Below are positions 13,820 to 60,602 of a stretch of 64,000 nucleotides of DNA, in pieces (the first letter of the stretch is position 1; every line of letters starts with the position of its first letter). A program made the translations under genes and the position numbers. The stretch covers positions 32,454-96,453 of the forward strand of contig JAHBTJ010000026.1 of assembly GCA_019638595.1 (NCBI GenBank). The letters run 5' to 3'. The notes under the pieces were generated by a model. The model was not told the DNA's origin and made no database searches. It saw nothing but the letters and a program-made list of their open reading frames with translations. This DNA comes from Chitinophagaceae bacterium (lineage in GTDB: Bacteria > Bacteroidota > Bacteroidia > Chitinophagales > Chitinophagaceae).

Positions 13820-13978
13820 GCTGTGGGCTGCGGGCGGAGAGGTGTGGGCGATGAGCGGTGAGCTATCAGCCGTCAGCAATTTATAGTTTATAGTTTTTTG
13901 TTTTTTGTTTATAGTTGAGAACAAACCTGAAACTTCAAACCACAAACCCGGAACTTCAAACTAAAAACTACAAACCTC
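13820..13978. repeat. Heptamer array 1 (reverse polarity), fills the gap
   Basis: From the base after the BtrH-like stop to the start of the ABC gene, nearly all sequence divides into 7-bp units: TGTGGGC/TATCAGC-type, then TTTATAG-type and TTTTTTG, then CTTCAAA/CCACAAA/CTACAAA-type. About 20 units are seen. This is the reverse complement of the order found at 20721 and 60390. Confidence 0.85.
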
Positions 13979-14722
13979 TTGTCTTCCGCAATCAACATAC
14001 AAAACCTGGGCTTTGGCTACAAAGGCCAAACCAAACAGGTAATTCCGTGTCTTGACTTACAGGTAGCGGAGGGTGAGCGTTTTGGCATATTTGGTCCCAA
14101 CGGCGCCGGTAAAACCACGCTCATGAACATCATGACCGGTTTACTTCCTTATGAATCGGGTTCAGTACAATTGTTGGGGCATGAAATAAAAAATCACAAA
14201 AAAAAGATCAATACCCTGTTTGGTTTTGTTCCGCAGGATTTTTCTTTTTACCACGAATTGAGTCCAGTAGAGAATATGGAATTTTTTGGAGCATGGGCCG
14301 GCTTAAACAAAATGCAAATCGTACGCAAAACAGATGAGCTGCTGAATATAATGTCGTTACAGGATGTAAGAAAGAAAGCGGTACATACTTTTTCCGGGGG
14401 TATGAAACGGCGTGTTAACCTTGCCATTGCAGTAATGCACGAGCCTAAAATCCTTTTCCTGGATGAACCCACTGTAGGGGTAGATGTACAAACAAGATAT
14501 GCTATCATCGGCTACCTTAAACAGCTTAATAAAGAAGGTATGACGCTTGTATATACGTCTCACCAGTTGAAAGAAGCAGAAGATCTTTGCAACAAAGTAG
14601 CCCTGATAGACCAGGGAGCGATCATCGCGAACAATACGCTGCCGGTACTATTGCAGGAACATGCACAGGACGGACTGGAAGGGTTATTCCTGAACCTTAC
14701 CGGAAGAGCGTATAGGGATTAA
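13979..14722 (+). CDS. ABC transporter ATP-binding protein (lone ATPase)
   Basis: 247 residues with a complete nucleotide-binding domain: Walker A GPNGAGKTT (39-47), signature FSGGMKRR, Walker B ILFLDEPTVGVD and the H-loop in YTSHQLKEAED. The only usable start in frame is TTG at 13979, which directly abuts a heptamer array; an in-frame stop lies 51 bp upstream inside the array. ABC ATPase plus permease pairs are usual in flexirubin clusters, but no permease gene is adjacent: another heptamer array and an unrelated leftward gene follow. Either the permease lies elsewhere or it was lost. ATP binding is secure, the transported substrate is not known. Confidence 0.85.
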   Translation: MSSAINIQNLGFGYKGQTKQVIPCLDLQVAEGERFGIFGPNGAGKTTLMNIMTGLLPYESGSVQLLGHEIKNHKKKINTLFGFVPQDFSFYHELSPVENMEFFGAWAGLNKMQIVRKTDELLNIMSLQDVRKKAVHTFSGGMKRRVNLAIAVMHEPKILFLDEPTVGVDVQTRYAIIGYLKQLNKEGMTLVYTSHQLKEAEDLCNKVALIDQGAIIANNTLPVLLQEHAQDGLEGLFLNLTGRAYRD

Positions 14723-14868
14723 GAGTTGGTGGTTAGTGGTTGAGAGCTATCGGCTGTCAGCTATCGGCCGTCAGTGTCTTTGTGTAGCTCCGTGGTTCAC
14801 AAAACGTCAACTTATTTCAGGCAGACACACACTATAAACAAAAAACCATAAACTATAAACTATAAATT
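14723..14868. repeat. Heptamer array 2 (mixed polarity)
   Basis: It starts right after the ABC stop. Units GTTGGTG, GTTAGTG, GCTATCG, GCTGTCA and GCCGTCA come first. Then come about 60 bp containing a TGTCTTTGTGTAGCTCCGTGG stretch, and then CTATAAA/CCATAAA units in the opposite polarity. It ends about 9 bp before the stop of the VCBS gene. Confidence 0.75.
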
Positions 14869-14877
14869 GTTTTCAAT

Positions 14878-17800
14878 TTAATTCTTCCTGATCACTATCA
14901 ACGGTCCATTGTTTTGTGTTGCAATAAAAAGCGGTTTTTTATTTTGATTTACAATTACCAGGTCACGCACATCTCCTAAGCTAACAAAGCCTGTTTCTGC
15001 AGGATAAGCAGTTTTAAAATTGCCCTTACCATCTCCATACAGGATCCAGCCTGGGCTGGCATCCATTTTACCAAGTTGGGGACGCCACGAATAAAAATTA
15101 CCGGCTATTGCCAGGTCTTTCCGTCCATCGCCATTCCAATCTCCCGTTACGATCCCCTGTGTTGCAGAAAACTGAGCCTCTGCGGGCAATTCATGGCGAA
15201 TAAATTTCCCGTCTTTATTTTCATAATATACCGATGCCAGGTCAAAAGCCCTGATAATCCTGGCTGCATCTATTTCTTCCTTTGTAAAAACCTGGTCGAA
15301 AGTGGCATCCGCATACTTATCATAGGAAGAAAATTTGTTCTTTATAGAAGGTATCTGCTCTGCAAGCTCATCCAGCCAGTTATAGGGATGAGGCTTCCCC
15401 TGGATATAGGTGCTGATCACAGGATCAATGGAACCATTGTTATCAAAATCACTGTAATAGATGCTCAGCGGTTCTTCAACATTTGCCCGGAACCGGGTAT
15501 TCAATCCCGCATTGCCTGCAATAATATCAATATCACCGTCGCCATCCATGTCATCCAGCAGTATCCTGCTCCATAACCCGTTGCTTTTATCCAATCCATA
15601 GTTTTCCGTGCGGTTGATCAGCTTTCCGTTCTCATTCTCAAATACTGTTACCGGCATAAATTCACCTGCTACCACCAGATCCGGCCAGCCGTCCCCGTTC
15701 ACATCTCCCCAGGCGCAGGTTGTAACCATACCAGGTAACCGAAGACTTTGTTCCGGCTGCTCAGAAGCATATTCAAATTTTATTGTACCATTTTTACTTT
15801 CATTACGCAATAAATAGCTGGTTGCCGGCACCGGAAATTCTCCCGGCTTTGAACGTCCGCCTATAAAAATATCCAGGTCGCCATCCTTATCATAATCTGC
15901 CACCGCAATACAGCTACTGTTTGTCATCAGTTCCGGCAAACCGCCGGTTGTTTTCCTGAAATTTCCCCTGCCGTCATTTATATACAGCTCACACTGGTAT
16001 TGCGGGCTTCTGTCCCTGAAAACCGATCCTCCTTTGGTAATGAACAGGTCCAGGTCTTTGTCGCCATCCGCGTCAAACAGGATCACCCCGGCATCATCCG
16101 CCGTTTCCGCATCAGCCCAGGGCTGTGATGCGGCAGGAACAAATGTTGCATTCCCGGTTTGCAGGTAAAGCTTTCCCCGCGCCTCTATAGTTCCCCCGAT
16201 AAAAACATCTTCCAGTCCGTCGCCGTTCACATCTCCTTTTGCCAGATGAGGCCCCTGCCTTGATAGCTGGTATGGAAGCAGCGGCTGAAATTTAAAATCA
16301 ACAAAGCTGCCTGCCACATGCCTGAAGTTCAAACCGGATAACGATGTATAATCAGTAAAAGAACGGTTGAACTGGTTTTCCGGCTGCGATATTTCTTTTG
16401 CCGCATCCCAACTAAAACGCAGCAGGGTATCCGCTTTGCCGTTTTGCGAGATATTAACTTTTCCATCCGGCCAAATTATTTTAACCTGCTTATATACGGA
16501 TGCTGCTCCCAGCCCGAAATGAAGCGTTGGCGGAACAGCAGACTGAAAGCCCCTGGTAGTATACATTTCCCGGAACTGGTTCATACTGTCTGTAGAAACA
16601 AAAACCTTAGCTCCCAGCCCGGCGCTGTTTCCTTCAGGGCCTTTGAGCTCTACTTTCAGGAAATGACCGGTAGTCTGCTTATCTGTATGGTTTTCGTAAA
16701 TATCCGCCACCTGGTTGGTATTGCAAACAACCAGGTCGAGGTCGCCGTCATTATCCAGGTCGGCATATGCCGCACCGGTTGATATAGTGGCATGATCAAA
16801 TCCCCAGTCTTTTACTTTATTGGAGAAACCCAACTGCCGGTTATTGGAAAATATATAGTTGTTGATCCTTGTCGTGGGAAGGCCTTTTACCAGTTCCCAG
16901 GTATTCAATGGCTTACCCTGATCCTTCGCCTTTTTCTGCGCCTCAGCAAATGTGTATTTCAAAAAATCCAGGTTTGTAAAGTCTCTCAGGTAACCGTTGG
17001 TAATAAAAAGGTCTTTCCAGCCATCGTTATCAAAGTCTGCCAGCAAGGGCGCCCAGCTCCAGTCTGTGCCATATACCCCTGCCAGTTGCCCTATCTCACT
17101 GAACTGAGGCACATCGGCCACGCTAATACCCAGGTTTAACTGGAGCATATTACGCATGTTCTGGTAATGAAAGCCACTGTCGGTCATCGTAGCGTAATGC
17201 AGATACGTATCGGGACCCCGGAGCAGCTTCTGACGCCGGTTATCTTCTGCCAGCATGTCCAAAGTAATAATATCCGGCAACAGGTCATTGTTATAATCTT
17301 CTATATCGCAGCCCATGGAAGACTGGGAAATATGCCCCATACTATTTTCAAGCACTTCTTTAAAAGTTCCATTCCTGTTATTCAGGTACAGGAAATCCTG
17401 CTCGTTGTAATCGTTGGTAACATATATATCCGGCCAACCATCATTGTTTAAATCGCTGACGGACACTCCCAGTCCAAAGTTCAGACCACCGCCATAAATT
17501 CCCGCCGCTTCGCTGATATCAACAAATTTGCCGTTGTCGTTCCTGTAGAGCCGGTTTCCGAACTTCGGGTGACGTTTGCTTCTCAACTTGGTTGTATTGA
17601 AAAATGGGTTGTAAAACATATCGCCGTGGTTCACCAGGAAAAAATCCAGGTCGCCATCAAGATCCATATCAAAAAAAACAGCCTGTGTAGAAAAGGTTCC
17701 CGGCGCGTCCAATCCCATCCCGGTAGCTTTTTCTGTAAAAACGGGTATACCGTCTTTCAATCCGTTGTTTATATACAGCTCATTTTTCCTGTCTGCATCC

Positions 17801-18216
17801 TCTCCCGGACCGGAATAACATACATAGATATCCGGCAAGCCATCCCCGTTCACATCCGCCATGGTTACACCCGTAGTCCATTTTGTTCTGCCCGCCACAC
17901 CTGCGGTCTCTGTAATGTCTTCAAACCGCATATTTCCCCTGTTCAGGTAAAGCTTGTTGGGAACCATATTGCCTGTAAAATAAATATCCGGCAATCCATC
18001 ATTGTTCAGGTCCCCTACAGCCACTCCATTCCCATTATACATATATTCATATGTCATCACATTCAGCTTATCATCCTCGGTTACTTCATTTACAAACCGC
18101 ACGCCGGTCTTGTCCGGTTGCAGCCGGGTAAATAAAGTATTTCTCTCCGCATTTTTCTTTCCACAGCCATATTGCAATATCAATATTACCGCCACTATCA
18201 GCTTTGTCCATTTCAT
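14878..18216 (-). CDS. VCBS/FG-GAP repeat lipoprotein with ASPIC/UnbV domain
   Basis: 1112 residues. The N-terminus is a lipoprotein signal with Cys at the end of ILILQYGCGKK. Integrin-like FG-GAP/VCBS units recur through the whole chain, each with a calcium-binding DxNxDGxxD-type loop (DLNNDGLPDIY, DVNGDGLPDIY, DMDLDGDLDFF, DYDKDGDLDIF and others). An ASPIC/UnbV-like segment (RGFQSAVPPTLHFGLG) lies around residues 550-590. Such proteins usually follow SusC/SusD pairs in Bacteroidota and are thought to sit on the cell surface. Here the SusC gene is absent, and only a 14-codon fossil of SusD remains upstream (18296-18340). Ligand unknown. Confidence 0.88.
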   Translation of the reverse strand: MKWTKLIVAVILILQYGCGKKNAERNTLFTRLQPDKTGVRFVNEVTEDDKLNVMTYEYMYNGNGVAVGDLNNDGLPDIYFTGNMVPNKLYLNRGNMRFEDITETAGVAGRTKWTTGVTMADVNGDGLPDIYVCYSGPGEDADRKNELYINNGLKDGIPVFTEKATGMGLDAPGTFSTQAVFFDMDLDGDLDFFLVNHGDMFYNPFFNTTKLRSKRHPKFGNRLYRNDNGKFVDISEAAGIYGGGLNFGLGVSVSDLNNDGWPDIYVTNDYNEQDFLYLNNRNGTFKEVLENSMGHISQSSMGCDIEDYNNDLLPDIITLDMLAEDNRRQKLLRGPDTYLHYATMTDSGFHYQNMRNMLQLNLGISVADVPQFSEIGQLAGVYGTDWSWAPLLADFDNDGWKDLFITNGYLRDFTNLDFLKYTFAEAQKKAKDQGKPLNTWELVKGLPTTRINNYIFSNNRQLGFSNKVKDWGFDHATISTGAAYADLDNDGDLDLVVCNTNQVADIYENHTDKQTTGHFLKVELKGPEGNSAGLGAKVFVSTDSMNQFREMYTTRGFQSAVPPTLHFGLGAASVYKQVKIIWPDGKVNISQNGKADTLLRFSWDAAKEISQPENQFNRSFTDYTSLSGLNFRHVAGSFVDFKFQPLLPYQLSRQGPHLAKGDVNGDGLEDVFIGGTIEARGKLYLQTGNATFVPAASQPWADAETADDAGVILFDADGDKDLDLFITKGGSVFRDRSPQYQCELYINDGRGNFRKTTGGLPELMTNSSCIAVADYDKDGDLDIFIGGRSKPGEFPVPATSYLLRNESKNGTIKFEYASEQPEQSLRLPGMVTTCAWGDVNGDGWPDLVVAGEFMPVTVFENENGKLINRTENYGLDKSNGLWSRILLDDMDGDGDIDIIAGNAGLNTRFRANVEEPLSIYYSDFDNNGSIDPVISTYIQGKPHPYNWLDELAEQIPSIKNKFSSYDKYADATFDQVFTKEEIDAARIIRAFDLASVYYENKDGKFIRHELPAEAQFSATQGIVTGDWNGDGRKDLAIAGNFYSWRPQLGKMDASPGWILYGDGKGNFKTAYPAETGFVSLGDVRDLVIVNQNKKPLFIATQNNGPLIVIRKN

Positions 18217-18239
18217 AAAACAGTATTGCTCCTAAACAA

Positions 18240-18268
18240 CATAAGAGCAAACTAAGTTTGCTCTTATG
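18240..18268 (-). other. Perfect 13-bp inverted repeat before the VCBS gene
   Basis: Bases 18240-18252 pair perfectly with 18256-18268 around TAA. The hairpin lies between the SusD remnant and the VCBS start, without a T-run after it. It would fold in the mRNA leader, 23 nt before the ATG. A role in attenuation or mRNA stability is inference. Confidence 0.65.
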
Positions 18269-18295
18269 ATAAATGTAATTTACAAATTTAAATTA

Positions 18296-18340: not shown

Positions 18341-18403
18341 TGATTAATGCGTCTTTCATTCATATATCTTTCCTTTGTTAAATTCACGCAAACGTTTGCC
18401 ATT

Positions 18404-18480
18404 ATGGGCTATCAGCTTTCAGCTATGAGTTGCGAACCTTAACACCCCTGTGCCTGAAACTTGCAACCTGTAACCGACAA
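18404..18480. repeat. Heptamer array 3 (short, reverse polarity)
   Basis: Units TGGGCTA, TCAGCTT and TCAGCTA, an irregular middle, then CCTGAAA, CTTGCAA and CCTGTAA. It ends at the terminator of the next gene. Confidence 0.65.
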
Positions 18481-18510: not shown

Positions 18511-18540
18511 GGATTGTTAGTAGCCCCAAAACCAATATTG

Positions 18541-19413: not shown

Positions 19414-19430
19414 GCTCAAATATTATATAC

Positions 19431-20678: not shown

Positions 20679-20720
20679 GTGTACAAGTTTGTAGTAAGGT
20701 AGTGAATTATTATTATATCA

Positions 20721-20878
20721 GGCTGCGAGGTGCGGGTTGCAAGGTGCAGGTTACAGGTTGCAGGTTACAAGTTTCCGGTAGTTTGTGGTTTGTAGTTTGA
20801 AGTTTCTTCTCAACCATAAACTATAAACACCTGATAGCTGACAGCTCACAGCCCATTGCTGATAGCTGAAAGCCCTGT
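20721..20878. repeat. Heptamer array 4 (forward polarity, the longest regular one)
   Basis: About 20 units: GGTTGCA/GGTTACA-type, then AGTTTGT/GGTTTGT, then CCATAAA and CTATAAA, then GCTGACA/GCTCACA/GCCCATT/GCTGATA. Short irregular joints of 9-13 bp stand at the module changes. It lies between two divergent genes. No promoter is readable inside it. Confidence 0.85.
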
Positions 20879-20994
20879 CATTCCTTACAGTACAGGATAG
20901 TTGTTGCTGGTTGGGTTTGTAAATTCCATTTTTATATATACGGCAATAACTTGCCGTGCTAACGACAATAGTAGAAATCAAAATATTTGCCGGT

Positions 20995-23106: not shown

Positions 23107-23196
23107 AGTAAACGATAATGACATATTACATAGACCAAAAAGAATTAGAGAAAACATAGGAATATGAGCATGTGGAAATAATAGTTTTTTGTGTAA

Positions 23197-23223
23197 CAAA
23201 CCCTAAACCCTAAACTCCAAACC
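23197..23223. repeat. Heptamer array 5 (short; overlaps the amidotransferase stop)
   Basis: Two CCCTAAA units and one CTCCAAA unit in direct succession. On the minus strand they encode the last residues of the amidotransferase and supply its TAG stop. Confidence 0.7.
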
Positions 23224-24060
23224 TTCTGCCTGCAGATGCTCTACCGCCTGGTCAAGGAAATTAGGCAGCACATGCGAATAGGTCCATAAGATTTTATCGG
23301 GGTCGTTCAACTGCTCGATCATGGAAGCCCATTTGGCTTCGCCATGCGCCTCTATTACACCCTTTTTTTTATCCTCCCGCTGCAGGTACATACTCATGCC
23401 GATCGCATCTGCTTCAGGATGAAACTGCGTACCGATCATATAGTCATTAAACCGGATGGCCATTACAGCCCGTTCCAGCGGTACATGAGGTCTTTCTTTT
23501 TCAATACACAAGATAGCGGCCCCCGACTGCTGTAACCTTTGCATATCAGGACTTACCACCTGGTAGTCACGGCTATCCACCACATAAAAAGGATCGCTTA
23601 ATCCCTCGAATATGAGTTCATTTTTTCCATCTTCCAGTAAATGAATGGGAAAAACGCCAAAAGAGGTAGACTTTCTTTTATTGACGATAGCAATTTTATA
23701 ATGCCTGCAGATAAGCTGGTATGAATGGCAGATAAAAAAAACAAATTTCTTTTGAATATGTGCAGCGTTGCCGTTCCAGGACTCAATCTGCTGAAACCAG
23801 TCAAAATAACGGTTTTCCCATTCCGAGCCTTCACTTTCAAGGGGGCTGCCCGGCCCGCCGCTTGATATATATATGTCGTAAGACATGCCAGGTGTTTCTA
23901 ATTTTTGCCTCACATCAAATTCATCCCATTCCATATCCAGGTCATTCGCTTCTCCGTACTGGTTTAAGATCTCCCTGATACAACGCATTCCCTGGTTAGG
24001 CACTCCTTCATACAGGTCAAGAACGGCTACCCGAATGTTTCTCTTTTGCCTCAATTTCAT
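23203..24060 (-). CDS. Class I glutamine amidotransferase-like protein
   Basis: 285 residues. The nucleophile elbow is FFICHSYQL (Cys near residue 110), and the His-Glu pair is in GTQFHPEAD, so the catalytic triad is complete. SSGGPGSPLE supplies the oxyanion region. It resembles the glutaminase part of GMP synthase, but no synthetase domain is present. It is a likely partner of the ATP-grasp protein encoded at 19482-20678 (inference). The -7 box TACATTTG ends 4 nt before the ATG, so the mRNA is predicted to be leaderless. The last codons and the stop are made of heptamer-array sequence, so the C-terminus may have been replaced. Confidence 0.82.
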   Translation of the reverse strand: MKLRQKRNIRVAVLDLYEGVPNQGMRCIREILNQYGEANDLDMEWDEFDVRQKLETPGMSYDIYISSGGPGSPLESEGSEWENRYFDWFQQIESWNGNAAHIQKKFVFFICHSYQLICRHYKIAIVNKRKSTSFGVFPIHLLEDGKNELIFEGLSDPFYVVDSRDYQVVSPDMQRLQQSGAAILCIEKERPHVPLERAVMAIRFNDYMIGTQFHPEADAIGMSMYLQREDKKKGVIEAHGEAKWASMIEQLNDPDKILWTYSHVLPNFLDQAVEHLQAEGLEFRV

Positions 24061-29978: not shown

Positions 29979-30052
29979 GTGGCTGTAGCTCAGTTGGTTA
30001 GAGCATCAGATTGTGGTTCTGAGGGTCGCCGGTTCGAGCCCGGTTAGCCACC
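29979..30052 (+). tRNA. tRNA-His (anticodon GTG)
   Basis: A complete cloverleaf can be drawn: acceptor GTGGCTG with TAGCCAC, D-arm starting GCTCAGTTGG, anticodon stem TCAGA/TCTGA with loop TTGTGGT (anticodon GTG), and a T-arm with GGTTCGAGCC. A G at 29978 opposite C at 30052 gives the extra -1 G:C73 pair typical of tRNA-His. The 3' CCA is not encoded directly (the next bases are CCC). Confidence 0.95.
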
Positions 30053-34774: not shown

Positions 34775-34845
34775 GGCTTTTCATAGGATAAGGTTTAATG
34801 GTTAACGGTTAAAAGATTAGTGCCCCCGAGCAATCGGGGTTTTCT
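34775..34845 (+). repeat. CATAGG-terminator module, copy 3 (divergent)
   Basis: GGCTTTTCATAGG is followed 36 bp later by a hairpin CCCCGA/TCGGGG with a GCAA tetraloop (34824-34839) and TTTTCTTT. The part between motif and hairpin differs from copies 1 and 2. Confidence 0.65.
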
Positions 34846-36076: not shown

Positions 36077-37570
36077 ATGGCAACAATAATCAACTCCCCC
36101 ATTAACAAGTTTCCCTCGAAATTTTTTGGTGAAGGCCTTACTTTCGATGATGTACTGCTGGTTCCTGCTTATTCGCAGGTTTTACCGCGCGAAGTAAATA
36201 TCAGCACTAAACTTACAAAAAGTATTACACTGAACATTCCTATGCTGTCTGCGGCTATGGATACCGTAACAGAAGCCAACCTTGCCATAGCGCTTGCAAG
36301 GGAAGGCGGGCTGGGCATCCTGCATAAAAACATGACGATTGAGAAACAGGCGGAACAGGTAAGAAAAGTAAAAAGAAGCGAAAGCGGGCTGATACTCGAT
36401 CCTGTAACATTGCATGAAAATGCCACTATCGGAGATGCATTGCAACTGATGAGGGAGAACAAAATAGGTGGTATACCGGTAATAGACAATCATAAAAAGC
36501 TGGTTGGCATTCTTACCAACCGCGATCTGCGTTTTGAAACCTCGGTCACCAAAAAAATCAGCGAGGTGATGACCAAAGAAAACCTGATCACAGCGCCGGA
36601 AGGAACCGACCTGAAAAAAGCGAAAAAAATATTGAGTCAATATAAAATAGAAAAGCTGCCGGTTGTAGATAAAAGTGGCTACCTGGTTGGCTTGATCACT
36701 TACCGGGATATACTGCAACTGCAAAGCCATCCCAATGCCGTAAAAGACGCGTTTGGAAGGTTACTTACGGGAGCAGCCCTGGGCATTACGGCCGACCTGA
36801 TGGATCGCGCGTCGGCATTGCAGCAAATTGGAGTGGATATTGTATGCCTCGACAGTGCGCACGGTCATACAAAAGGGGTGATAGAAGCCCTGAAACGCTT
36901 AAAAAAGAATTTTAAGAAATTACAGGTAATAGCAGGCAATATTGGAACGGCGGCAGGGGCCAAAGCGTTAGCGGAAGCAGGCGCCGACGCGGTAAAAGTA
37001 GGGATCGGTCCCGGCTCTATTTGTACAACACGCATTGTTGCCGGCGCGGGTGTGCCGCAGGTTACCGCTGTAATGGAAGCGGCTTCGGTATTGCACAAAC
37101 TGGGCATTCCATTAATAGCGGATGGTGGCATTCGTTACACCGGCGACATGGTGAAAGCTTTAGCTTCCGGCGCAAACGCGGTAATGATGGGGGGGGTATT
37201 TGCCGGAACAGAGGAAAGCCCGGGCGAAACCATTATATACGAAGGCAGAAAGTTCAAACAATACAGGGGCATGGGATCGCTGGGCGCCATGAGCCAGGGC
37301 AGCGGTGACCGTTATTTCCAGGATGTGGAAGACGACATTAAAAAATTTGTGCCCGAAGGCATTGAAGGGCGGGTAGCTTTTAAAGGAAGCCTGAGTGAAA
37401 TAGTATATCAATATACCGGCGGGCTGCGGTCGGGTATGGGATATTGCGGGGCTGCCGATATTGCGGCCCTTCAAAAAGCCCAGTTCATAAAAATTACCAA
37501 CGCAGGTATGAAAGAAAGCCATGCGCACGATATAGAAATTACCCGCGAAGCGCCTAATTATACAAGATGA
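36077..37570 (+). CDS. guaB: IMP dehydrogenase
   Basis: 497 residues. The barrel opens with [17 protein letters not shown]. Two CBS domains lie at about 95-205 ([25 protein letters not shown]). The catalytic loop [15 protein letters not shown] holds Cys316. The later [17 protein letters not shown] and [10 protein letters not shown] match the family. It converts IMP to XMP with NAD. A TTG start at 36071 is rejected since it lies inside the -7 box; ATG 36077 coincides with the predicted +1, so the mRNA is predicted to be leaderless. A heptamer array begins straight after the stop. Confidence 0.95.
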
Positions 37571-37700
37571 TGAATTTGAGATTTGAAATTTGAGATTTGA
37601 TGGCTGTTGCAGGTTACGGGTTTGTGGTTTGTAGTTTGTGGTCTCATAGCCCATAGCTCACAGCCCACCAATTAATAGCTCACAGCCGGCAGCCACCCCC
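37571..37700. repeat. Heptamer array 6 (forward polarity)
   Basis: Units run TTTGAGA/TTTGAAA, then GGTTACG, GGTTTGT and AGTTTGT, then GCCCATA/GCTCACA/GCCGGCA. It starts directly after the guaB stop. The CTATAAA module is missing here. Confidence 0.85.
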
Positions 37701-44512: not shown

Positions 44513-46402
44513 ATGCAACGCGTTATTTTCTTCCTGTTTACTGTAAGCCTTTCATTTGCTGGTTCGGCGCAGGATGCCGGTTCCCGCTTTATTGTACATC
44601 CCTATCTCCAGCACAGCACGCAAAGCAGCATCCGCATTCATTGGGAAACATCCGATTCCTGCACAACACAGGTACAGTATGGCGCTGCCAGATTAAATTC
44701 GGGGAAACCTGTCTGGGATAATGTGTTCAGCATTCCCGGTACAAGAACAATGCACCACGCGTTACTGGAAAAATTAAACCCGGAAACGGTTTATTTCTAT
44801 CGCGTCATTTCTATCTTGCCCGGAGGCGATTCACTGGTTTCTGATGTCAATACTTTTCAAACTTCCGTAAAAGACAGCTCCGCTTTCGCTTTCGCTGTTT
44901 TCAGCGATTCGCAGAACGACTGGAAAGACCCCGAGGCCTGGAAAAGAGTAAGTACACAGGCCTATAAGCAAAGACCCAATTTCGCGGTACATGCCGGCGA
45001 CCTGGTTGATTTAGGGTACATGAAAGACGACTGGGTGAATGAATTTTTGGGACAGGGTAATCTATTCATGAAAACCATCCCTGTTTTCTCTATACCGGGA
45101 AATCATGAGCACGATGCCGCATACTATTATCAATACATGTATGTGCCCCAACCCTACTTTTATAGCTTTAAGTACGGCAATGCTGAATTTTTTATGATAG
45201 ATACCGATCAGTACCAGGAAGAAGGAACCGATATGTACAACGCTGTTGAAGTGGCGCTGGCAAGATCAACCGCTTACTGGAAATTCGTGGTGCATCATCA
45301 CCCTCCTTTTTCTTCGGATGATGATGATTTTGGCGATACACGCTATGAAGCATCTGAACGGGGAGACACAGAAGTTCAATCGCTGGTACCATTGTATGAA
45401 AAATATGGCGTTGATATTGTTTTTTACGGACATATACATACCTATGAAAGAACATGGCCGGTACTCAACAAGAAAACGGTTAATGAAAATGGTGTATTAT
45501 ATATCAATACAGGCGGCTCAGGCGGAAGCCTGGAAAACCCTGCCCCAACCCGTTCCTGGTTCACCAACACCCTGCGAACAGTGCATCATTTCGGGTATGT
45601 AACCATCAATCAACATGTTTTACAATTCCAGGCCATTGATGAAAACGGCAATTTGTTTGACCAGTTTGTATTGAATAAAAGCAGGAAGGAGCATATTAAA
45701 AACCTCTCCCCTGCCGCGCCGGTTGTAAATACCGGGAAACGTTTGTTTACAGACACCATGCAGGTAAGCCTTGCAACAGCCAATAACACCGATGCTGTTT
45801 ATTATACTACAGACAATACTGAACCGACAAGAAACAGCTTACTATATTCCGGTAATATTACATTGGATCAATCCACTGTTATTAAAACAACAGCCTTTAA
45901 TGCTTTTGGCAAAAGCCGTATGAACGTATATTACTTTAAAAAAGAAAAATTATTTAAAGCTGCCAAGACAAAAAAATTATCCGGTGGATTACAATATGGC
46001 TACTTCACCGGGCAAATAGCCGATGAGGACAGCACTTATTTTAATAAGATCAATGGGGAGAGCAGAGGAACCACACCCGGTCTTGACCTGAATAATATTC
46101 CGCACGGGGAACAATTCTGGGGAGCTGTTTTTACCGGCTATCTATATGCGCCTGGAACAGGTTATTACCTTTTCGATGGTCACGCGGATCATCGCTTACG
46201 GTTACATATACACGATAAATTATTATTTGATGAGAAAAACAGGGATATCAATTATTCCGGGGAGATTTACCTGGAGAAAGGATATCACCCCGTAAAGATC
46301 GAATACTATAACAGCAGGAAGAACAGGGCTTTTATTGAATTGTATTATACAGTACCCGGAATGGAGCGGAAAGCGGTACCGGATGAGGCGTGGCGGAGGT
46401 AG
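44513..46402 (+). CDS. Secreted purple acid phosphatase-like metallophosphoesterase with CHB_HEX_C and PA14 domains
   Basis: About 629 residues from the ATG at 44513 (signal peptide MQRVIFFLFTVSLSFAGSAQ). Domains in order: a fibronectin III-like PAP N-terminal domain (IRIHWETSDSCTTQVQYG), the metallophosphoesterase core (FAVFSDSQND, VHAGDLVDLGY, IPGNHEHD, VVHHHPPF, YGHIHTYERT), and a chitobiase C-terminal-like domain (VYYTTDNTEPTRNSLLYSG). Last is a PA14-like domain (GYYLFDGHADHRLRLHIHD). The metal ligands are all present. It lies after a SusCD terminator and may release phosphate from nutrients taken up by that system, which is inference. Confidence 0.88.
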   Translation: MQRVIFFLFTVSLSFAGSAQDAGSRFIVHPYLQHSTQSSIRIHWETSDSCTTQVQYGAARLNSGKPVWDNVFSIPGTRTMHHALLEKLNPETVYFYRVISILPGGDSLVSDVNTFQTSVKDSSAFAFAVFSDSQNDWKDPEAWKRVSTQAYKQRPNFAVHAGDLVDLGYMKDDWVNEFLGQGNLFMKTIPVFSIPGNHEHDAAYYYQYMYVPQPYFYSFKYGNAEFFMIDTDQYQEEGTDMYNAVEVALARSTAYWKFVVHHHPPFSSDDDDFGDTRYEASERGDTEVQSLVPLYEKYGVDIVFYGHIHTYERTWPVLNKKTVNENGVLYINTGGSGGSLENPAPTRSWFTNTLRTVHHFGYVTINQHVLQFQAIDENGNLFDQFVLNKSRKEHIKNLSPAAPVVNTGKRLFTDTMQVSLATANNTDAVYYTTDNTEPTRNSLLYSGNITLDQSTVIKTTAFNAFGKSRMNVYYFKKEKLFKAAKTKKLSGGLQYGYFTGQIADEDSTYFNKINGESRGTTPGLDLNNIPHGEQFWGAVFTGYLYAPGTGYYLFDGHADHRLRLHIHDKLLFDEKNRDINYSGEIYLEKGYHPVKIEYYNSRKNRAFIELYYTVPGMERKAVPDEAWRR

Positions 46403-46557
46403 CTGTCAGCTATCAGCCATCAGCGGTCAGCTATCAGTAATTTATAGTTTATGGCTTTTTGTTTATAGTTGAGGAAAAAACCACAAACCCGAAACTACAA
46501 ACCCGTAACCTGGAACCTGCAACAGCAATCAAATTTCAAATCTCAAATTTCAAATTC
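46401..46557. repeat. Heptamer array 7 (reverse polarity), fills the gap
   Basis: The order GCTATCA/GCGGTCA, then TTTATAG, then CCACAAA/CTACAAA, CCTGGAA and CCTGCAA, then TTTCAAA/TCTCAAA. It is the exact reverse order of array 9. It begins at the stop codon of the phosphatase and ends 4 bp before the ATG of the next gene. Confidence 0.85.
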
Positions 46558-46561
46558 CCTC

Positions 46562-48790
46562 ATGTTACGATCTTCACTATTCATTTGTTTGTTGTGTTTG
46601 CTTATCATCAACAGCAAAGCGCAACTAACATATACACCTGCAAGTGTTGCCGATGTTCCTTTCAGCCAGGAATACCATGTTCCTCATTTTCCAAAAGGAT
46701 TGACTGATGCAAATATCAGGAGTATCGCGGCAGATGACCAATCCAATATATGGATCGCTACTTCGGAAGGGGTTTTTAAAAAGAACAGCAGTGATGATAG
46801 CTGGCAAAAAATGGTGAGCGGATTGGAAGATGGTCCTGCTTATGCAGTATTATACCACCCTGCGTCGGGCATTTGGGCTGGCACCTGGAAAGGTGTTTTC
46901 CTGTACAAAAACAATGCTTTCAAAAAAATGGCAGATGCGCAAGGTCCCGTTTCCGTATTGTGTGCTGCCGAAGAAGGAATATATGCTTTCGGACCCAAAG
47001 ATACCTGGCTTTGCAATGCATCGGGCCCGATAAAAAAAGATATACTGATAGCAAGATCAGTGCGTTCGGCGGTAGCGGATCAAAAGTCAGGCCTATGGAT
47101 CGGCACGGATGTCGGGTTGTATCATTATACTTCTGATTCAGTAAAATATTTTTTTGATACCTCACATCTGATCAGCGCGTATGTAAAAGGAGTGGCTGTA
47201 AAAGACGGAGATATATGGGCAGGTGGTTTGGGCGGAGTATCGGTTTTGAACAATGGTATTCAAAAGAAAACAATCCAACCTGCGGACGGACTCTCTTCCC
47301 AGTATGTGAATTGCATAAGCGTAGCGCCGGATGGTTCGGTATGGGTGGGCACAGATGTGGGCATTGTTCGTTTTCACAACGATGGCAGCCATTCGCTCCG
47401 CTTCAGCCGCAGGTGGTTATTGAATGATAAAGTAAACCAGGTTGTATTCGACAAAAACGGTACCGCCTGGGTTGCCACACAGGGAGGAGTAAGCGCCATT
47501 CACACCCAACAAATGACGCTCGCCGGTAAAGCAAAATATTTTTATGATGTAACCATGCAACGCCATGTCCGGGAGCCATGGATTGTAGGGCAATGCCGTT
47601 TGCCCAACCCTGATGATGTAACCAGGTGGGAGCCCGAAGACGATGATAATGACGGAGAATATGGCGGGAATTATCTCGCTATGGAATGTTTCCGCTATGC
47701 GGTTACCAAAAGCAATGATGCAAAAGAAAAAGCCAAAAAGATGTTTGACTTTTTGAAATTACTGCAGGAGATAACAGGAACAGACGGCTTTTTTGCACGA
47801 ACCATTGTGCCGGTATCGTGGGGTGATAATGTGCATGACAGAAATGTAACATATACGGAGAAAGAACTGGCGGAGGAACTGGTGAAGGAGCCGCGTTTTA
47901 AACCGGTAGAAAAACGCTGGCATACATCGAAAGATGGTAAATGGCTATGGAAAGGCGACACCAGCAGCGATGAATGGTGCGGGCACATGATCGGCTATTT
48001 TCTATATTATGAACTGGTGGCCGATAAAAAAGAAAAACAGGTGGTTGCCAGGCATGTTGCAAAGCTTGCAGATCATCTTATACGAAACAATTTCAACATG
48101 ATTGATGTAGATGGAACACATACGCGCTGGAGCGTGTGGAGCCCGGATAAGCTGAACAGGGATCCTGAATGGATACCCGACAGGAACCAGAATTCAATGG
48201 AAATACTCGGCTTTTTAAAGCTGGCGTATTATATGACCGGTGATAATAAATACCAGCAACATTACCTGCACCTGATCAATGAAGAGCATTACCTGGAAAA
48301 TATGCAAAAAATACAGCAGCAAAACCCTGCCTGGTTCATATATTTTGATGTGGTGCTGCAAATGTATATATACCCCATTCTACTGCATTGCGAAAAAGAT
48401 CCCGCATTATTAAAATTTTACCAATCGCATTTTGACAACTGGATGCAGGCAAGAAAAAATGATAAAAATCCGCTGATCAACTTTTTTTATAGTTACGCTA
48501 CCAACAAAAAAGCAGAATTACCTGTATCCATCGAATTTTTAAGAGATACACCGCTCGACCTGGTTAACTGGGGAATAGATCATACCAAAAGAGAAGATGT
48601 TCAAGTGGTTCGCACACCTGTAATGGATGACCTGCAGGTAAGCGAATTACCGCCTGCAAGCATACGTGCAACCGTTCGCTGGGATAAAAATCCATGGACA
48701 GCCGTTAACGGGCAAACCAATACGGAACGGGAGCCTGTTTTCTGGCTGTTGCCTTACTGGATGGGAAAGTATTTGAAGATGATAGAATGA
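46562..48790 (+). CDS. Secreted two-component-type propeller protein with helical C-terminal domain
   Basis: About 742 residues from the ATG at 46562; a longer frame upstream is only translated heptamer array. After the signal peptide (MLRSSLFICLLCLLIINSKAQ), residues about 40-330 hold Reg_prop-like propeller blades (IRSIAADDQSNIWIATSEGVF, VKDGDIWAGGLGGVSVL, ISVAPDGSVWVGTDVGIV, VVFDKNGTAWVATQGGVS). The C-terminal 400 residues are helical with WCGHMIGYFLYYEL and ILGFLKLAYYMTGDNKY, which suggests an alpha/alpha barrel. No kinase domain is present, so it is not a hybrid sensor. Enzymatic role unknown. Confidence 0.82.
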   Translation: MLRSSLFICLLCLLIINSKAQLTYTPASVADVPFSQEYHVPHFPKGLTDANIRSIAADDQSNIWIATSEGVFKKNSSDDSWQKMVSGLEDGPAYAVLYHPASGIWAGTWKGVFLYKNNAFKKMADAQGPVSVLCAAEEGIYAFGPKDTWLCNASGPIKKDILIARSVRSAVADQKSGLWIGTDVGLYHYTSDSVKYFFDTSHLISAYVKGVAVKDGDIWAGGLGGVSVLNNGIQKKTIQPADGLSSQYVNCISVAPDGSVWVGTDVGIVRFHNDGSHSLRFSRRWLLNDKVNQVVFDKNGTAWVATQGGVSAIHTQQMTLAGKAKYFYDVTMQRHVREPWIVGQCRLPNPDDVTRWEPEDDDNDGEYGGNYLAMECFRYAVTKSNDAKEKAKKMFDFLKLLQEITGTDGFFARTIVPVSWGDNVHDRNVTYTEKELAEELVKEPRFKPVEKRWHTSKDGKWLWKGDTSSDEWCGHMIGYFLYYELVADKKEKQVVARHVAKLADHLIRNNFNMIDVDGTHTRWSVWSPDKLNRDPEWIPDRNQNSMEILGFLKLAYYMTGDNKYQQHYLHLINEEHYLENMQKIQQQNPAWFIYFDVVLQMYIYPILLHCEKDPALLKFYQSHFDNWMQARKNDKNPLINFFYSYATNKKAELPVSIEFLRDTPLDLVNWGIDHTKREDVQVVRTPVMDDLQVSELPPASIRATVRWDKNPWTAVNGQTNTEREPVFWLLPYWMGKYLKMIE

Positions 48791-48880
48791 GGTTGCAGGT
48801 TACAGGTTTATATTTGAAATTTGAGATTTGAAATTTGAGATCTGAGATTCACTGATCGCTGACAGCTGACAGCTCACAGC
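48791..48880. repeat. Heptamer array 8 (forward polarity)
   Basis: GGTTGCA and GGTTACA come first, then TTTGAAA/TTTGAGA alternating, then GCTGACA/GCTCACA/GCCCATA. It starts right after the stop of the propeller gene. Here the first two modules are swapped compared with arrays 6 and 9. The next 300 bp (48881-49183) hold no gene, only T-rich sequence and the promoter at 49152. Confidence 0.8.
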
Positions 48881-49151
48881 CCATATCCATATTTTCCGGA
48901 ATAATTTTTTACAAAAAACAAACACTTGAAATTATCTTTTTATGTGATTTTTTAGGCAACTTTTTACTCCTTTTTGAATGCCCGTTTTTTATTTTTTATT
49001 TTTTTGAACACATCTGCAGGTATAATGGCGCTGTTCCGTTCAAATCTTTCAAAAATTATGGTCGCTGTATAACTTCATTCTTATTCACTATTAAGTAAAA
49101 CATTGAGTTTTAGCATTTTGCGAACAAAAAAATCGCCCATTTTCTTTGAAG

Positions 49152-50154: not shown

Positions 50155-50547
50155 TTACATGGAAGAATTAGTTGGGGTTGCCGGTAGGCGACAATAAAAG
50201 TATATGAAGCGTCTTCGCTTCGCACAGCAGAAATTTATACAAATAGTAAAATATAATAATATTTATAAAACTTATTAAACTCAGCAAAAAATATTCTTTA
50301 TAAACAGTTTATCCGTTCAATAACTTCTACTCGTATACTTAAAAGATTAGAAATAAATTCTTAAAATAGCTAATTATCAATAAAATAAATTAAAAACAGG
50401 AGTATCAATAGAAGAAATCAAACAAAAAGAAGATTTAAATTAAAAATATTTATATGTTAATAATATTATCTAACTATATCAAAATAATAACTAGATTTGT
50501 TGAAAATATTTAAATATTAAAATTTTTAAATTTAAAATCTGACCAAA
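50155..50547 (+). other. Very AT-rich 390-bp region upstream of amt
   Basis: No gene is seen. From about 50230 the sequence is almost only A and T with many short A/T tracts. A small GAAGCG/CGCTTC hairpin lies near 50206. A -7 box TAGATTTG at 50492-50499 gives a predicted start near 50503 and a 45-nt leader for amt. The A/T richness suggests bending or regulator binding for nitrogen control (inference). Confidence 0.6.
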
Positions 50548-56936: not shown

Positions 56937-56938
56937 CT

Positions 56939-57352: not shown

Positions 57353-57355
57353 CGT

Positions 57356-57712
57356 ATGGAATTATTACTGATAATAGTGCTGGGGCTGCTATATGCAGGC
57401 GGGGTGTATTTCATTTTAAGGAGAAGCATGGTTAAGCTCCTGCTGGGTATTATGCTGCTGGGAAGCGCTACCAACATACTGATTTTTGTATTGGGGTCAA
57501 TTGTTAAAGGCAGCCCTCCGGTTATAGATGCGGATCACGATACATTTTCCGGAATATACGCCGACCCTGTTCCGCAGGCGCTTATTCTTACCGCTATTGT
57601 GATCAGTTTCGCCCTTACGGCATTCGCCATTGTGTTGCTTAAAAGAGTATACGCGCTGGTACAAACCGACGATTTGGATAATTTAAATACCCCGGAGGAA
57701 GAAGATATATGA
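57356..57712 (+). CDS. mrpC: Na+/H+ antiporter subunit MrpC
   Basis: 118 residues, NuoK-like, three helices. It carries MVKLLLGIMLLGSATNI and DPVPQALILTAIVISFALTAF, typical of MnhC. It overlaps mrpD by 4 bp (ATGA). Confidence 0.93.
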   Translation: MELLLIIVLGLLYAGGVYFILRRSMVKLLLGIMLLGSATNILIFVLGSIVKGSPPVIDADHDTFSGIYADPVPQALILTAIVISFALTAFAIVLLKRVYALVQTDDLDNLNTPEEEDI

Positions 57713-59211
57713 CAGGCAACCATATTTTAGCATCCGTTTTCATTCATTTATTCATAGCCATTTTTCAACTGATTGCATGGCGTAAAACCGTAACCCAGCG
57801 TATCCTTTCAGTGGGCGGGGCACTTGTTGGCCTGATCATAGCCATCGTGTTATTTCAGCAGGTATACCTGCATGGCACCTATACGTTGAACGCGGCAAAC
57901 TGGGCAGCGCCTTTCGGTATAGTATTCGCGGCGGATCTTTTATCCGCCACCATGGTGTTGTTAACATCCATCGCCGGATTTGCGGTTTCTATTTTTTCTT
58001 CTACAGGCATCAGCAGGCAAAGAATGCTGTATGGTTATTTTCCTATTTTTCATTTCCTGCTCATGGGGCTGAACGGCGCCTTTTTAACAGGCGATATCTT
58101 TAACCTGTATGTATGGTTCGAGGTGATCATCATTTCTTCTTTTGTTTTAATGACGCTGGGCGGAAGAAAACAACAACTGGAAGGCGCCGTTAAGTATATG
58201 GCCATGAATATACTGGCTTCCATGTTTTTTTTAACCGGCATTGGCATTCTTTATGGTATTACAGGCTCGTTAAATATGGCCGATCTGTCAACGAAAATAC
58301 AGGAAGTGGAAAACCGGTCGCTGGTTGGCATTACATCCGTATTTTTTATTTTAGGGTTCGGCATTAAATCTGCGGTGTTTCCTTTGTATTTCTGGCTGCC
58401 ATCCTCCTATCATACTCCTCCTTCGGCAGTTGCTGCAACCTTTGGCGGGCTGCTGACCAAAGTAGGTATATATGCCATGCTCCGGGTAAACAGCCTCATA
58501 TTTATCCCCGACGATTTTACCAGAAAATTATTGATGACCATTGCGGTGCTGACCATATTAACAGGCGCTTTCGGGGCGCTCATAAAAACATCTGTCCGCA
58601 GGCTTTTTTCCTACCTTATTGTATGCCATATAGGCTTTATGGTAGGTGGTATTGCCATGTTCACCAAAGTAGCGCTGATAGGAACGGTATTTTACCTGAT
58701 CCATGACATCATGGTTAAAACCAATATGTTTTTAATTGCCGGGCTTATACGGCAGCTAAGAGGAACAATGAGCATGGAAAAGCTGGGAGGACTATACCGC
58801 GAGTACCCTAAAATTTCACTGCTGATCGCTATCGTTCTTTTTTCACTGGTAGGCATCCCCCCGCTATCGGGATTTTGGCCAAAAATATATTTATTCCGGG
58901 AGTCATTCTCCCAGCACCAGTATGTATATATCGCTGCGCTGATAACCGGGAGCCTGGCTACTTTATATGTGATCGCGAAAATGTGGGCCGAAGCGTTCTG
59001 GAAAGAAACACCGCAGGGCATTGCAGTAGAAGATCAATTTGCGCCCCTTCCGGTATATAGAAAAATATTACTGGTATTACCTATCGGTATTTTGGGAGTG
59101 GTGTCGGTATATATAGGAATAAATGCAGAAACGATTATACAGGTAGCCGATAGAATAGCAAATGAGCTGATAGATACAAGTTCATACATAAAAGCGGTAT
59201 TAAAAAACTAA
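57709..59211 (+). CDS. mrpD: Na+/H+ antiporter subunit MrpD
   Basis: 500 residues, NuoN/NuoM-like, about 14 helices. Key stretches: FNLYVWFEVIIISSFVLM, the lysine-bearing FGIKSAVFPLYFWLPSSYHTPPSAVAATFGGLLTKVG, and ALIKTSVRRLFSYLIVCHIGFM. It is one of the two proton-pumping-like subunits of the complex, together with MrpA. Confidence 0.94.
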   Translation: MTGNHILASVFIHLFIAIFQLIAWRKTVTQRILSVGGALVGLIIAIVLFQQVYLHGTYTLNAANWAAPFGIVFAADLLSATMVLLTSIAGFAVSIFSSTGISRQRMLYGYFPIFHFLLMGLNGAFLTGDIFNLYVWFEVIIISSFVLMTLGGRKQQLEGAVKYMAMNILASMFFLTGIGILYGITGSLNMADLSTKIQEVENRSLVGITSVFFILGFGIKSAVFPLYFWLPSSYHTPPSAVAATFGGLLTKVGIYAMLRVNSLIFIPDDFTRKLLMTIAVLTILTGAFGALIKTSVRRLFSYLIVCHIGFMVGGIAMFTKVALIGTVFYLIHDIMVKTNMFLIAGLIRQLRGTMSMEKLGGLYREYPKISLLIAIVLFSLVGIPPLSGFWPKIYLFRESFSQHQYVYIAALITGSLATLYVIAKMWAEAFWKETPQGIAVEDQFAPLPVYRKILLVLPIGILGVVSVYIGINAETIIQVADRIANELIDTSSYIKAVLKN

Positions 59212-59222
59212 ACTGTTAGGGT

Positions 59223-59699
59223 ATGATAAAGAATTTTTTGATGAACCTGCTGCTGTCTTTTATCTGGGTAGCATTAACCGGGACGCTTTCCTACTCCAGT
59301 TTCGTATTCGGCTTTATATTAGGCTTTTTTGTTTTGTGGATAATGAACAGGAACGAAGAAGACCGCCGGTATTTTTACCGCCTTCCCAAAATATTCAGCT
59401 TTGTTTTTTATTTTTTGTATTTGGTGCTTAAAGCCAATATACAGGTAGCGTATGATGTAATAACACCTAAATACTTTTTCAGGCCCGGCATTGTTCGATA
59501 CCCCATGAATACCGAATCGGATTTTGAAATAAATGTGCTGTCAACATTAATTTCTTTAACCCCCGGCACATTGATACTGGATGTGAGCGAAGATAAAAAA
59601 GCGCTATACATCCATGTTATGTACCTTACTGACCCGGAAGCTTTTATAAACGAATTAAAAACCGGAATGGAACGCCGGTTACTGGAGATATTACGATGA
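59223..59699 (+). CDS. mrpE: Na+/H+ antiporter subunit MrpE
   Basis: 158 residues. Two N-terminal helices and a cytoplasmic domain with the MnhE pattern FEINVLSTLISLTPGTLILDVSEDKKALYIHVMY. It overlaps mrpF by 4 bp. Confidence 0.92.
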   Translation: MIKNFLMNLLLSFIWVALTGTLSYSSFVFGFILGFFVLWIMNRNEEDRRYFYRLPKIFSFVFYFLYLVLKANIQVAYDVITPKYFFRPGIVRYPMNTESDFEINVLSTLISLTPGTLILDVSEDKKALYIHVMYLTDPEAFINELKTGMERRLLEILR

Positions 59700-59968
59700 C
59701 ACTAGGAACTTATTTTGACTTTGTGATCTTACCGATACTGACGATCTCCGTCATATTGGTTTTCATCCGCCTGTTCAGGGGACCGGCAATAGTAGATCGT
59801 GTAATTGCGCTCGACCTGATCATTACTATAGGCATAGGTATCATTACCGTGTACAGCATACGCCAAAACCAGAAAGTATTGCTGGATGTAGCTATTATAC
59901 TGGCGCTGATAGCGTTTTTGGGAACCATTGCATTTTCTTATTACATAGAAAAACAAAAAGATGATTAA
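59696..59968 (+). CDS. mrpF: Na+/H+ antiporter subunit MrpF
   Basis: 90 residues, three helices. FIRLFRGPAIVDRVIALDLI is the MnhF family signature. It overlaps mrpG by 8 bp. Confidence 0.92.
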   Translation: MTLGTYFDFVILPILTISVILVFIRLFRGPAIVDRVIALDLIITIGIGIITVYSIRQNQKVLLDVAIILALIAFLGTIAFSYYIEKQKDD

Positions 59969-60389
59969 TATTATTTTAGCAATACTGAGCACGGCGGGTG
60001 CGCTGGCGATCCTGTTCGCTTCTATAGGTATATTAAGGATGCCCGATTTTTACCTGCGGCTTTCCGTAACAGTTAAAGCATCCAGCCTGGGTGTGGGCTT
60101 ATTGCTGATATGCGCGGCGATCATGTTTCCCGACGATGCCTCCGTAACGACAAAATCCATCGCTATTATTTTCTTTTTGTTCATTACCGCGCCAATAGCT
60201 GCACACATGATAGGAAGAGCCGCTTATTTTACCGGCATTCCGCTATGGAAAGGTACCATAGTAGACGAGTTGGATGGCATGTATAACAAAGAAACACACG
60301 AGCTGAAGAGCGACCCCAAAGATGCCATCCATAAATCTACCGGCAAAGAAGACGACCAGATAGCCGAAACCGATGAAGAAACCAGGTAG
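59961..60389 (+). CDS. mrpG: Na+/H+ antiporter subunit MrpG
   Basis: 142 residues, three helices with FASIGILRMPDFYLRLSVTVKASSLG and the family's TAPIAAHMIGRAAY. The C-terminal 40 residues are charged and hydrophilic, somewhat longer than usual. It closes the mrpABCDEFG operon, which exports Na+ in exchange for H+ and supports pH and salt tolerance. A heptamer array begins at the next base. Confidence 0.92.
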   Translation: MINIILAILSTAGALAILFASIGILRMPDFYLRLSVTVKASSLGVGLLLICAAIMFPDDASVTTKSIAIIFFLFITAPIAAHMIGRAAYFTGIPLWKGTIVDELDGMYNKETHELKSDPKDAIHKSTGKEDDQIAETDEETR

Positions 60390-60602
60390 GATTTTTGATT
60401 TGAAATTTGAGATTTGAAATTCGAGATTTGATGGCTGTTACGGGTTGCAAGTTGCTGGTTACAGGTTTAATACTACACCTTATACCTTTGTTACAAGTTA
60501 CAGTTTGTTTACTCAACTATAAACCATAAACAACAAACCATAAACCGGCCGCTGATGGCTGAATGCTGATCGCTCATCGCATAGCCCATCGCTCATAGCT
60601 CC
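60390..60602. repeat. Heptamer array 9 (forward polarity, all modules), fills the whole gap
   Basis: It runs from the base after the mrpG stop to the base before the ppc stop. Order: TTTGAAA/TTTGAGA, then GGTTGCA/GGTTACA, an irregular 30 bp, AGTTACA, then CTATAAA/CCATAAA/CAACAAA, then GCTGATG/GCTGAAT/GCTCATC/GCCCATC. It carries no readable terminator for either convergent operon. Confidence 0.87.

Follow-up and report, generated by a model that had tools for sequence, protein, structure and literature searches.

Heptamer repeats have been described in several bacterial groups, and the systems closest to the one reported here are compared from excerpts of the cited papers. In the window, a stretch of 64,000 nucleotides from a Chitinophagaceae genome (GCA_019638595.1, contig JAHBTJ010000026.1, positions 32,454 to 96,453), intergenic regions hold arrays of degenerate heptamers that keep a 7-bp step while their units change from one type to another, hereafter heptad arrays. 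Mrazek et al. noted in 2007 that heptamers are the most abundant among the long simple sequence repeats of prokaryotes and proposed slippage as the cause, 7 nt being the stretch in contact with the polymerase (as told in PMC4679880 and PMC4692102); the excerpts of PMC4692102 contain no test of this hypothesis. The nearest parallel in print, as far as its excerpts describe it, is provided by the G-rich heptamers of Xanthomonas and Nostoc (GGGAATC and GGGGA(T/C)T, PMC4692102), which resemble the arrays here in their period of 7, their heterogeneous units and their dispersed, mostly intergenic location, with few copies between divergent genes and many less than 50 bp from a stop codon. In Xanthomonas, the likeness extends to inverted pairs and to the occupation of mostly the same gene pairs in two related species, with variable length and sequence. 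That study describes one G-rich, quadruplex-forming unit, whereas the arrays here have five unit types in a fixed order (none with a run of three G in its sequence), form composites specific to a lineage, undergo block replacement and coincide with breaks.

The other systems are further away. The TAACTGA repeats of Beggiatoaceae, Cyanobacteria and five Bacteroidetes (PMC4679880) are also scattered intergenic heptamers, with other heptamers in two Bacteroidetes, but the excerpts give them one fixed unit and a place mostly upstream of start codons, neither of which applies to the arrays here. The dispersed multicopy families of Geobacter metallireducens (PMC2700814) consist of four or five tandem heptamers but, in the passages drawn on, differ in their near-constant unit number, their occurrence also within genes and their proposed regulatory role, while the many heptamer-based (GATAGRA)n satellites per genome of Chloroflexus (PMC6749651) are described there as a single unit family. 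Head-to-tail 7-bp units and gain or loss in whole steps are shared with one-unit simple sequence repeats, but the single unit per array is not, and the excerpts of PMC4679880 and PMC4692102 on long simple sequence repeats do not mention composites of several types that are copied from site to site. Searches of the open-licence literature listed no composite heptad arrays for Chitinophagaceae; compared to that literature, the fixed-order multi-type composite, its spread in a single lineage and the array sites that outlive their content would appear to be new.

Arrays of the window and specificity of the 7-bp step

Lag-7 runs were defined by a sliding self-match in 42-bp windows, with an identity of at least 0.60 (looser threshold) or 0.63 (stricter threshold), and tandem units in the window were called separately by Tandem Repeats Finder (TRF). 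At 0.60, the window contained 14 lag-7 runs (1150 bp), eight runs at lag 14 and three at lag 21, with no run at lags 5, 6, 9, 10, 11, 13 and 15 and one at lag 8, which is an isolated stretch of 8-bp period at 50487-50543 (AAATATTT). TRF reported units of 7, 14 or 21 bp at 13880-13968, 14745-14866, 20728-20805, 37573-37642, 46401-46556, 48812-48849 and 60397-60546. The weak runs at 34781, 39482, 44029, 50499 and 59388 are of the chance or low-complexity kind. The arrays, listed without strand, were read as follows:

13815..13993: heptad array [RGCYRTC]n-[TTTATAG]n-TTGAG-[AAACNNN]n (TRF, self-match, unit reading)
14712..14889: heptad arrays [AGCYRTCGGCYGTC]n and [ACTATAA]n, between convergent genes (TRF, self-match, unit reading)
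18393..18436: weak heptad stretch CTATCAG/CTTTCAG, near the detection limit (self-match 0.57)
20715..20880: heptad array [GGTTRCA]n-[GTAGTTT]n-CTCAAC-[ATAAACY]n-[CTGAYAG]n, in a divergent intergenic region (TRF, self-match)
23181..23240: weak heptad stretch with AAACCCT twice, AAACTCC and AAACCTT, near the detection limit (self-match 0.60)
37556..37687: heptad array [ATTTGAR]n-TTTGATGGCTGTT-[GGTTACG/GGTTTGT]n-[ATAGCYC]n, after the IMP dehydrogenase gene (TRF, self-match)
46381..46573: heptad array [AGCTRTC]n-[TTTATAG]n-TTGAG-[ACAAACC]n-[TGYAACC]n-[TCAAATT]n (TRF, self-match)
48782..48900: heptad array [GGTTRCA]n-[ATTTGAR]n-[GCTGACA]n (TRF, self-match)
60373..60613: heptad array [ATTTGAR]n-TTTGATGGCTGTT-[GGTTRCA]n-[GTTTGTT]-CTCAAC-[ATAAACC]n-[GCTGATG/GCTCATA]n, between convergent genes (TRF, self-match)

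An earlier note on this DNA had named nine 7-bp stretches, seven of which are strong (13820, 14723, 20721, 37571, 46401, 48791 and 60390), whereas those at 18404 (0.57) and 23197 (0.60) lie near the limit. Its link of the CCCTAAA array at 23197 to the plant telomere is not supported, as there are two such units in a weak array and they read as a variant of AYAAACY, one of the unit types described below. The first array begins at the stop codon of a gene whose last position is 13819. CRISPR loci consist of constant repeats of 20-40 nt with unique spacers; this architecture was not found in the window arrays by repeat finding or by array reading, in agreement with the earlier note. At the gathering score, the only Rfam match in the window was a tRNA (29979-30052), with none at the arrays.

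We then examined larger samples of the genome holding the window (G000, a draft of 7.06 Mb), in which genes and intergenic regions were called by our own script. At the stricter threshold, 384 kb (214 called intergenic regions, 339 kb called coding) gave 24 lag-7 arrays, all 24 in called intergenic regions, compared to a mean of 0.0 in five dinucleotide shuffles and to 0-1 arrays at each of lags 4-6 and 8-13. At the looser threshold, 784 kb gave 54 lag-7 runs in 51 of 455 intergenic regions (43 of the 54 runs reach 0.63) and 11 weaker runs elsewhere, while other lags gave 2-7 intergenic runs (42 at lag 14) and 3-22 elsewhere. Since other lags give similar counts at 0.60, the 11 non-intergenic runs and a few of the 54 represent the background level. 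Extrapolated from the 784-kb sample, G000 would hold about 400-500 arrays; 50 kb of E. coli K-12 gave no lag-7 run. In summary, the 7-bp periodicity in intergenic DNA is real and specific to 7 bp and its multiples: a dispersed family with several unit types, as proposed in the earlier note, extends across the 384-kb and 784-kb samples, exceeding shuffled intergenic sequence at lag 7 and recurring at other loci.

Block order and sequences common to many sites

Five unit types were read: E (ATTTGAR), D (GGTTRCA), C (GGTTTRT), c (AYAAACY, the complement of C) and A (GCYSAYA). The units are variable, as the earlier note had stated, but not at nearly every position, since the expressions used have three to five fixed bases out of seven. 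Between neighbouring units there is a mild transition excess (transition/transversion ratio of 0.74, compared to 0.47 in the shuffle). More than one unit type per array is found in 31 of the 51 array regions, which parse into at least two blocks, and the blocks follow the order E-D-C-c-A, that is, [ATTTGAR]-[GGTTRCA]-[GGTTTRT]-[AYAAACY]-[GCYSAYA], in either orientation. Although the same arrays served both to define unit types and order and to score them, 41 of the 59 neighbouring pairs in the 31 multi-block regions agree with this order, compared to a mean of 20.0 (sd 2.9, maximum 32 in 2000) when order and orientation were randomised and to a mean of 25.6 (maximum 31) for the best of the 96 possible orders in 500 randomised sets. 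In the second sample alone (seven multi-block regions), 12 of 18 pairs were concordant, against a random mean of 6.1 and with this number reached in none of 5000 randomisations. Because the unit types keep a fixed order, the arrays are better read as copies of one composite than as independent inventions.

The best-conserved junction, E-to-D, keeps the 7-bp step (ATTTGAG|ATTTGAT|GGCTGTT|GCAGGTT|ACAGGTT), and thus at least one recurrent type change leaves the step intact, as had been claimed; the D blocks grade into C blocks in the junction copies read. The junction word TTTGATGGCTGTTNCNGG, not itself a tandem repeat, occurs in 40 copies in G000 and 14 in its sister species G004, and is absent from 56 other relatives, of which 10 belong to the same genus, while the reversed pattern, used as a control, occurs once across all 58 genomes. 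In the 22 of the 40 G000 copies that were read in context, the flanks differ, and the lengths and ends of the composites vary. This distribution, 40 copies in G000, 14 in the sister and none in 56 relatives, implies that blocks are copied between sites. The unit stocks also differ: the type-D pattern is found in 9/12 genomes of the genus and 0/16 others, the type-A pattern in 6/12 and 1/16, and TCCAYTRTCCAYTRTCC in 16 copies in G004, one in G005 and none in the other 26 genomes, including G000 (G004 and G028, the source of locus L068, return identical places and were treated as one genome). Hence, the junction copies together with the differing stocks indicate that block sequences spread within genomes. 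The blocks common to unlinked sites are about 50 bp long, with 92-94% identity.

Other repeats occur inside the arrays. The 17-nt palindromic word CCGCCACGGCGGACAGG (29 copies in G002, 7 in G000 and 5 in G004) lies at one fixed place inside the ATTTGAR blocks of several species (L258, L263, L259, L264, L261 and L262) and within other sequence at L257, L260, L265 and L266; it is perhaps a separate, tiny repeat that targets ATTTGAR arrays. A shared 17-nt insert in three junction copies was considered as proof of a copied subfamily and dropped, as repeated insertion is possible; since the same word occurs at the same place in the ATTTGAR blocks of other species, the insert is not used as evidence. 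At the sister sites L175, L177 and L218, another repeat, running from near TTGTCATTCAGAGCGAACAAATAA to near CGTGAGCGAAGAATCTG with variable first and last parts, is embedded in heptad arrays.

Orthologous sites and gene order in the sister species

The nearest relative compared, G004, is a draft metagenome assembly with about 78-95% DNA identity to G000, depending on the region. With both flanks required, 41 of the 351 intergenic regions of at least 60 bp could be mapped in the G004 sequence compared, a set weighted to array-bearing places; in this set, 17/19 array regions of G000 hold an array in G004, compared to 0/22 array-free regions. Among 18 junction loci for which two flanks each were sought, 11 were co-linear, three were split over contigs and four had one flank only. 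All of the 11 orthologous sites have lag-7 runs in G004, while the exact junction is kept at two and a near form at a third (L224). The change is visible inside one array, at L165:18527, where G000 and G004 agree as far as GCTCATTGCCCA and thereafter continue with two different heptamer series; the sister site of the first window array (L029:14572) holds different blocks. In summary, array sites outlive their content, which has been turned over at most sites relative to the sister.

Three arrays, selected for alignability, align well with the sister. The gaps measure 7, 3, 7, 7 and 7 at 46401, 7, 1, 14 and 14 at 60390, and 7, 14 and 7 at L204, so that 10 of 12 indels are multiples of 7, compared to 5 of 67 in a control of 99 segments aligned in the same way (Fisher p 1e-7). 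The gain and loss of whole units between close relatives, anticipated in the earlier note, is thus seen here as indels of 7 and 14 bp.

Arrays also coincide with changes in gene content and order. The sister lacks one gene between window positions 14723 and 18478, from array to array, and one between 20719 and 23233, again from array to array; the gene at 14878-18216, which sits between the array at 14712..14889 and the weak array at 18404, has no counterpart there. The absent genes encode an FG-GAP/UnbV protein and a DUF5722 protein, the second array of each interval is the weak one, and both genes may be present elsewhere in G004. Synteny breaks were found at three of the 14 junction loci with both flanks found (L205, L196 and L202), the flanks of one G000 array lying on different G004 contigs; at L205 the partner changes inside the array, at L196 on its border, and at L202 in a 340-bp interval that contains it. 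These five places suggest that arrays may act as seams for gene gain, loss and rearrangement.

Possible origins of the arrays

On the sequence comparisons above, we consider it probable that the arrays are selfish or near-neutral, resized by slippage in 7-nt steps and rewritten among one another. As unit changes come in steps of seven, slippage is indicated, and the whole units gained and lost in the alignable arrays would result from slippage of the replicating polymerase. A second process that moves sequence between arrays is needed to account for the junction copies, for a stock of units specific to each species and for standing sites that are overwritten. Blocks and junctions, whose copying is seen in their copy numbers, would pass from array to array either by ectopic recombination or gene conversion or by a change of template at short cores common to the arrays. 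Recombination through short homologies fits, as does template switching, because the types share short cores and unlinked sites share the blocks of about 50 bp. The unit types and composites current at any time would thereby be particular to each genome, and standing sites would be overwritten more often than new ones are opened. The observed restriction to intergenic DNA may reflect selection, coding sequence excluding the arrays.

Several observations weigh against this reading. The shared blocks remain at about 50 bp and 92-94% identity, and no long exact match between a donor and a recipient was seen among them. Gaps have mixed lengths at the sites that align badly (13820, 37571 and the two where a gene is absent), and in BLAST alignments only 3/15 gaps within window arrays equal 7 or 14, although none of 105 gaps in other non-coding and none of 161 in coding sequence do so. 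When 35 array flanks were sought in G004, 23 were placed and 14 had both flanks at a usable distance; the net length difference was a multiple of 7 in only two of these 14 orthologous intergenic pairs, and replacement is therefore not strictly in register. The changes between G000 and G004 are unpolarised in direction. As the sister is a draft metagenome assembly, single synteny breaks could be misassemblies, and the excerpts of the Xanthomonas heptamer study report increased stability near the repeats (PMC4692102), opposite to seams.

A wider version, which we offer tentatively and would not favour as it stands, is that Bacteroidota possess a repeat system defined by its step and not by its sequence, in which the 7-bp spacing would recur throughout the phylum as its units are replaced, arrays template one another by switching at short shared cores, sites are inherited and content is rewritten from a genome-specific stock. 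Its engine would be a cellular activity that steps by 7 nt, whether the replicative polymerase or a dedicated copier, with the arrays as seams of gene order. Since the array family separates step from sequence, and orthologous arrays can be compared unit by unit, it may serve as a natural assay for the slippage step of the replisome and for short-homology copying between unlinked sites, by which the old puzzle of the bacterial preference for repeats of seven becomes testable. The arrays are also a possible source of breaks and of gene gain and loss in Bacteroidota.

The copying implied by the junction counts (40, 14 and none) and by the fixed block order could instead be the work of a dedicated mobile element, the composite being a non-autonomous element of the repetitive extragenic palindrome (REP) or miniature inverted-repeat (MITE) kind, moved by a transposase such as Y1/RAYT, with the heptads as its internal sequence. 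G000 has five Y1_Tnp matches, and one of these genes adjoins an array (L235:1184-1372, where junction copy L207 lies; of the two genes bordering the array, one encodes a Y1 transposase, PF01797). Clear arrays are, however, present at only two of the five three-kb loci, and two more have a weak run at 0.60 only, the expectation from array density being about 0.23 per locus by our own estimate. REP/BIME and RAYT elements are short dispersed intergenic repeats; unlike them, the arrays here have no short conserved palindrome, constant ends or clear link to a Y1 transposase. A palindrome with fixed ends was not found in the 22 junction composites, which vary in length and ends. No empty site exists among the 11 orthologous sites of junction copies, all of which already hold a lag-7 array in the sister, and so a target-site duplication could not show. 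Other Bacteroidota keep the 7-bp step with different units, which also speaks against one element. Since no empty site or fixed end was seen, we regard a transposon as unlikely.

A selected function in RNA or DNA, with 3′-end hairpins acting as terminators or in mRNA protection, or with a ladder of protein sites whose partner imposes the 7-bp step, is also improbable in our judgement. Arrays were found in 11/55 convergent, 35/336 tandem and 5/64 divergent intergenic regions; convergent regions are thus hit most (11/55 compared to 40/400 others, p=0.04), and an array lies within 20 bp of 32/61 flanking 3′ ends but of 16/47 flanking 5′ ends. A preference for gene 3′ ends was nevertheless rejected: the distance is suggestive, but paired with the downstream start, the arrays of tandem regions are not significantly nearer the stop (p=0.19), and their orientation is 12 along transcription and 11 against it. 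Strong inverted arms occur in 33/168 arrays of all genomes (31/133 outside G000), compared to 14 in the mirror control and three in random segments, but in only 2/35 arrays of G000. The hairpin as a general rule was likewise dropped, since the inverted score does not differ significantly from the mirror score in any of three groups (168 arrays, Wilcoxon p 0.89, 0.23 and 0.69). In predicted RNA folding, array regions have a mean z of -2.0 (n=38), similar to the -1.7 of array-free regions (n=58), and content at orthologous sites is mostly unconserved.

Separately, facing pairs of heptads, with units differing by locus, were seen at L096:3977-4152, L093:3509-3717, L124:7904-7961 and L145:6696-6813, where they could form long modular hairpins, and further inverted heptad arms at L058:6239 and 19117.

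The recurrence of arrays after the IMP dehydrogenase gene in several genera would also fit a function. In 80 Bacteroidota loci of this gene, there were 55 lag-7 runs (eight of them in L134), compared to 3-12 runs at lags 5, 6 and 8-11 and none at lag 13, and, at the stricter threshold, arrays lie within 230 bp after the gene in 9/80 loci, compared to 0-3 at other lags. Among the matches listed, the units are GTGAGTG (Foetidibacter luteolus), GTGAAAA (L073), TTTTTAC (a Ferruginibacter metagenome-assembled genome (MAG)), TTAGCTT (Dyadobacter crusticola) and AGAATAG with an inverted partner (a Saprospiraceae MAG).

In D. crusticola, nine perfect TAGCTTT units directly follow the IMP dehydrogenase gene (L122:11470-11592); beyond the array lie a terminator-like hairpin and GCTAATG-like units in inverted orientation. 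L134, from a Pedobacter MAG, has the highest count of the 80 loci, with its eight lag-7 runs in 21 kb and many unlike units.

Purely local slippage, in which each array is an independent 7-bp expansion and likeness is convergent, accords with perfect, locus-specific arrays such as those of L122 (TTAGCTT, Dyadobacter), L128 (GTTGTAC) and L083 (TTTCTTA), and may hold for isolated arrays in other genera. For G000, it is contradicted, since it leaves the 40 copies of a non-repetitive junction and the conserved block order unexplained, and as a general account we hold it to be very unlikely. Chance or a low-complexity artefact, to which the few weak window runs and the 11 runs outside intergenic regions might point, has a negligible probability and is contradicted by the shuffles (0.0 compared to 24 arrays) and by the absence of runs in 50 kb of E. 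coli K-12.

Twenty stretches (329 kb), two of which consist only of N while some others are short, were taken from further genera of the family and further families of the order; they gave eight lag-7 and six lag-8 runs, four of the eight being in L245. With such counts, the 7-bp trait is uneven across the family and order. L245 itself carries CCCAAATC-like units that mix 7-bp and 8-bp steps, with four lag-7 and five lag-8 runs in 20 kb.

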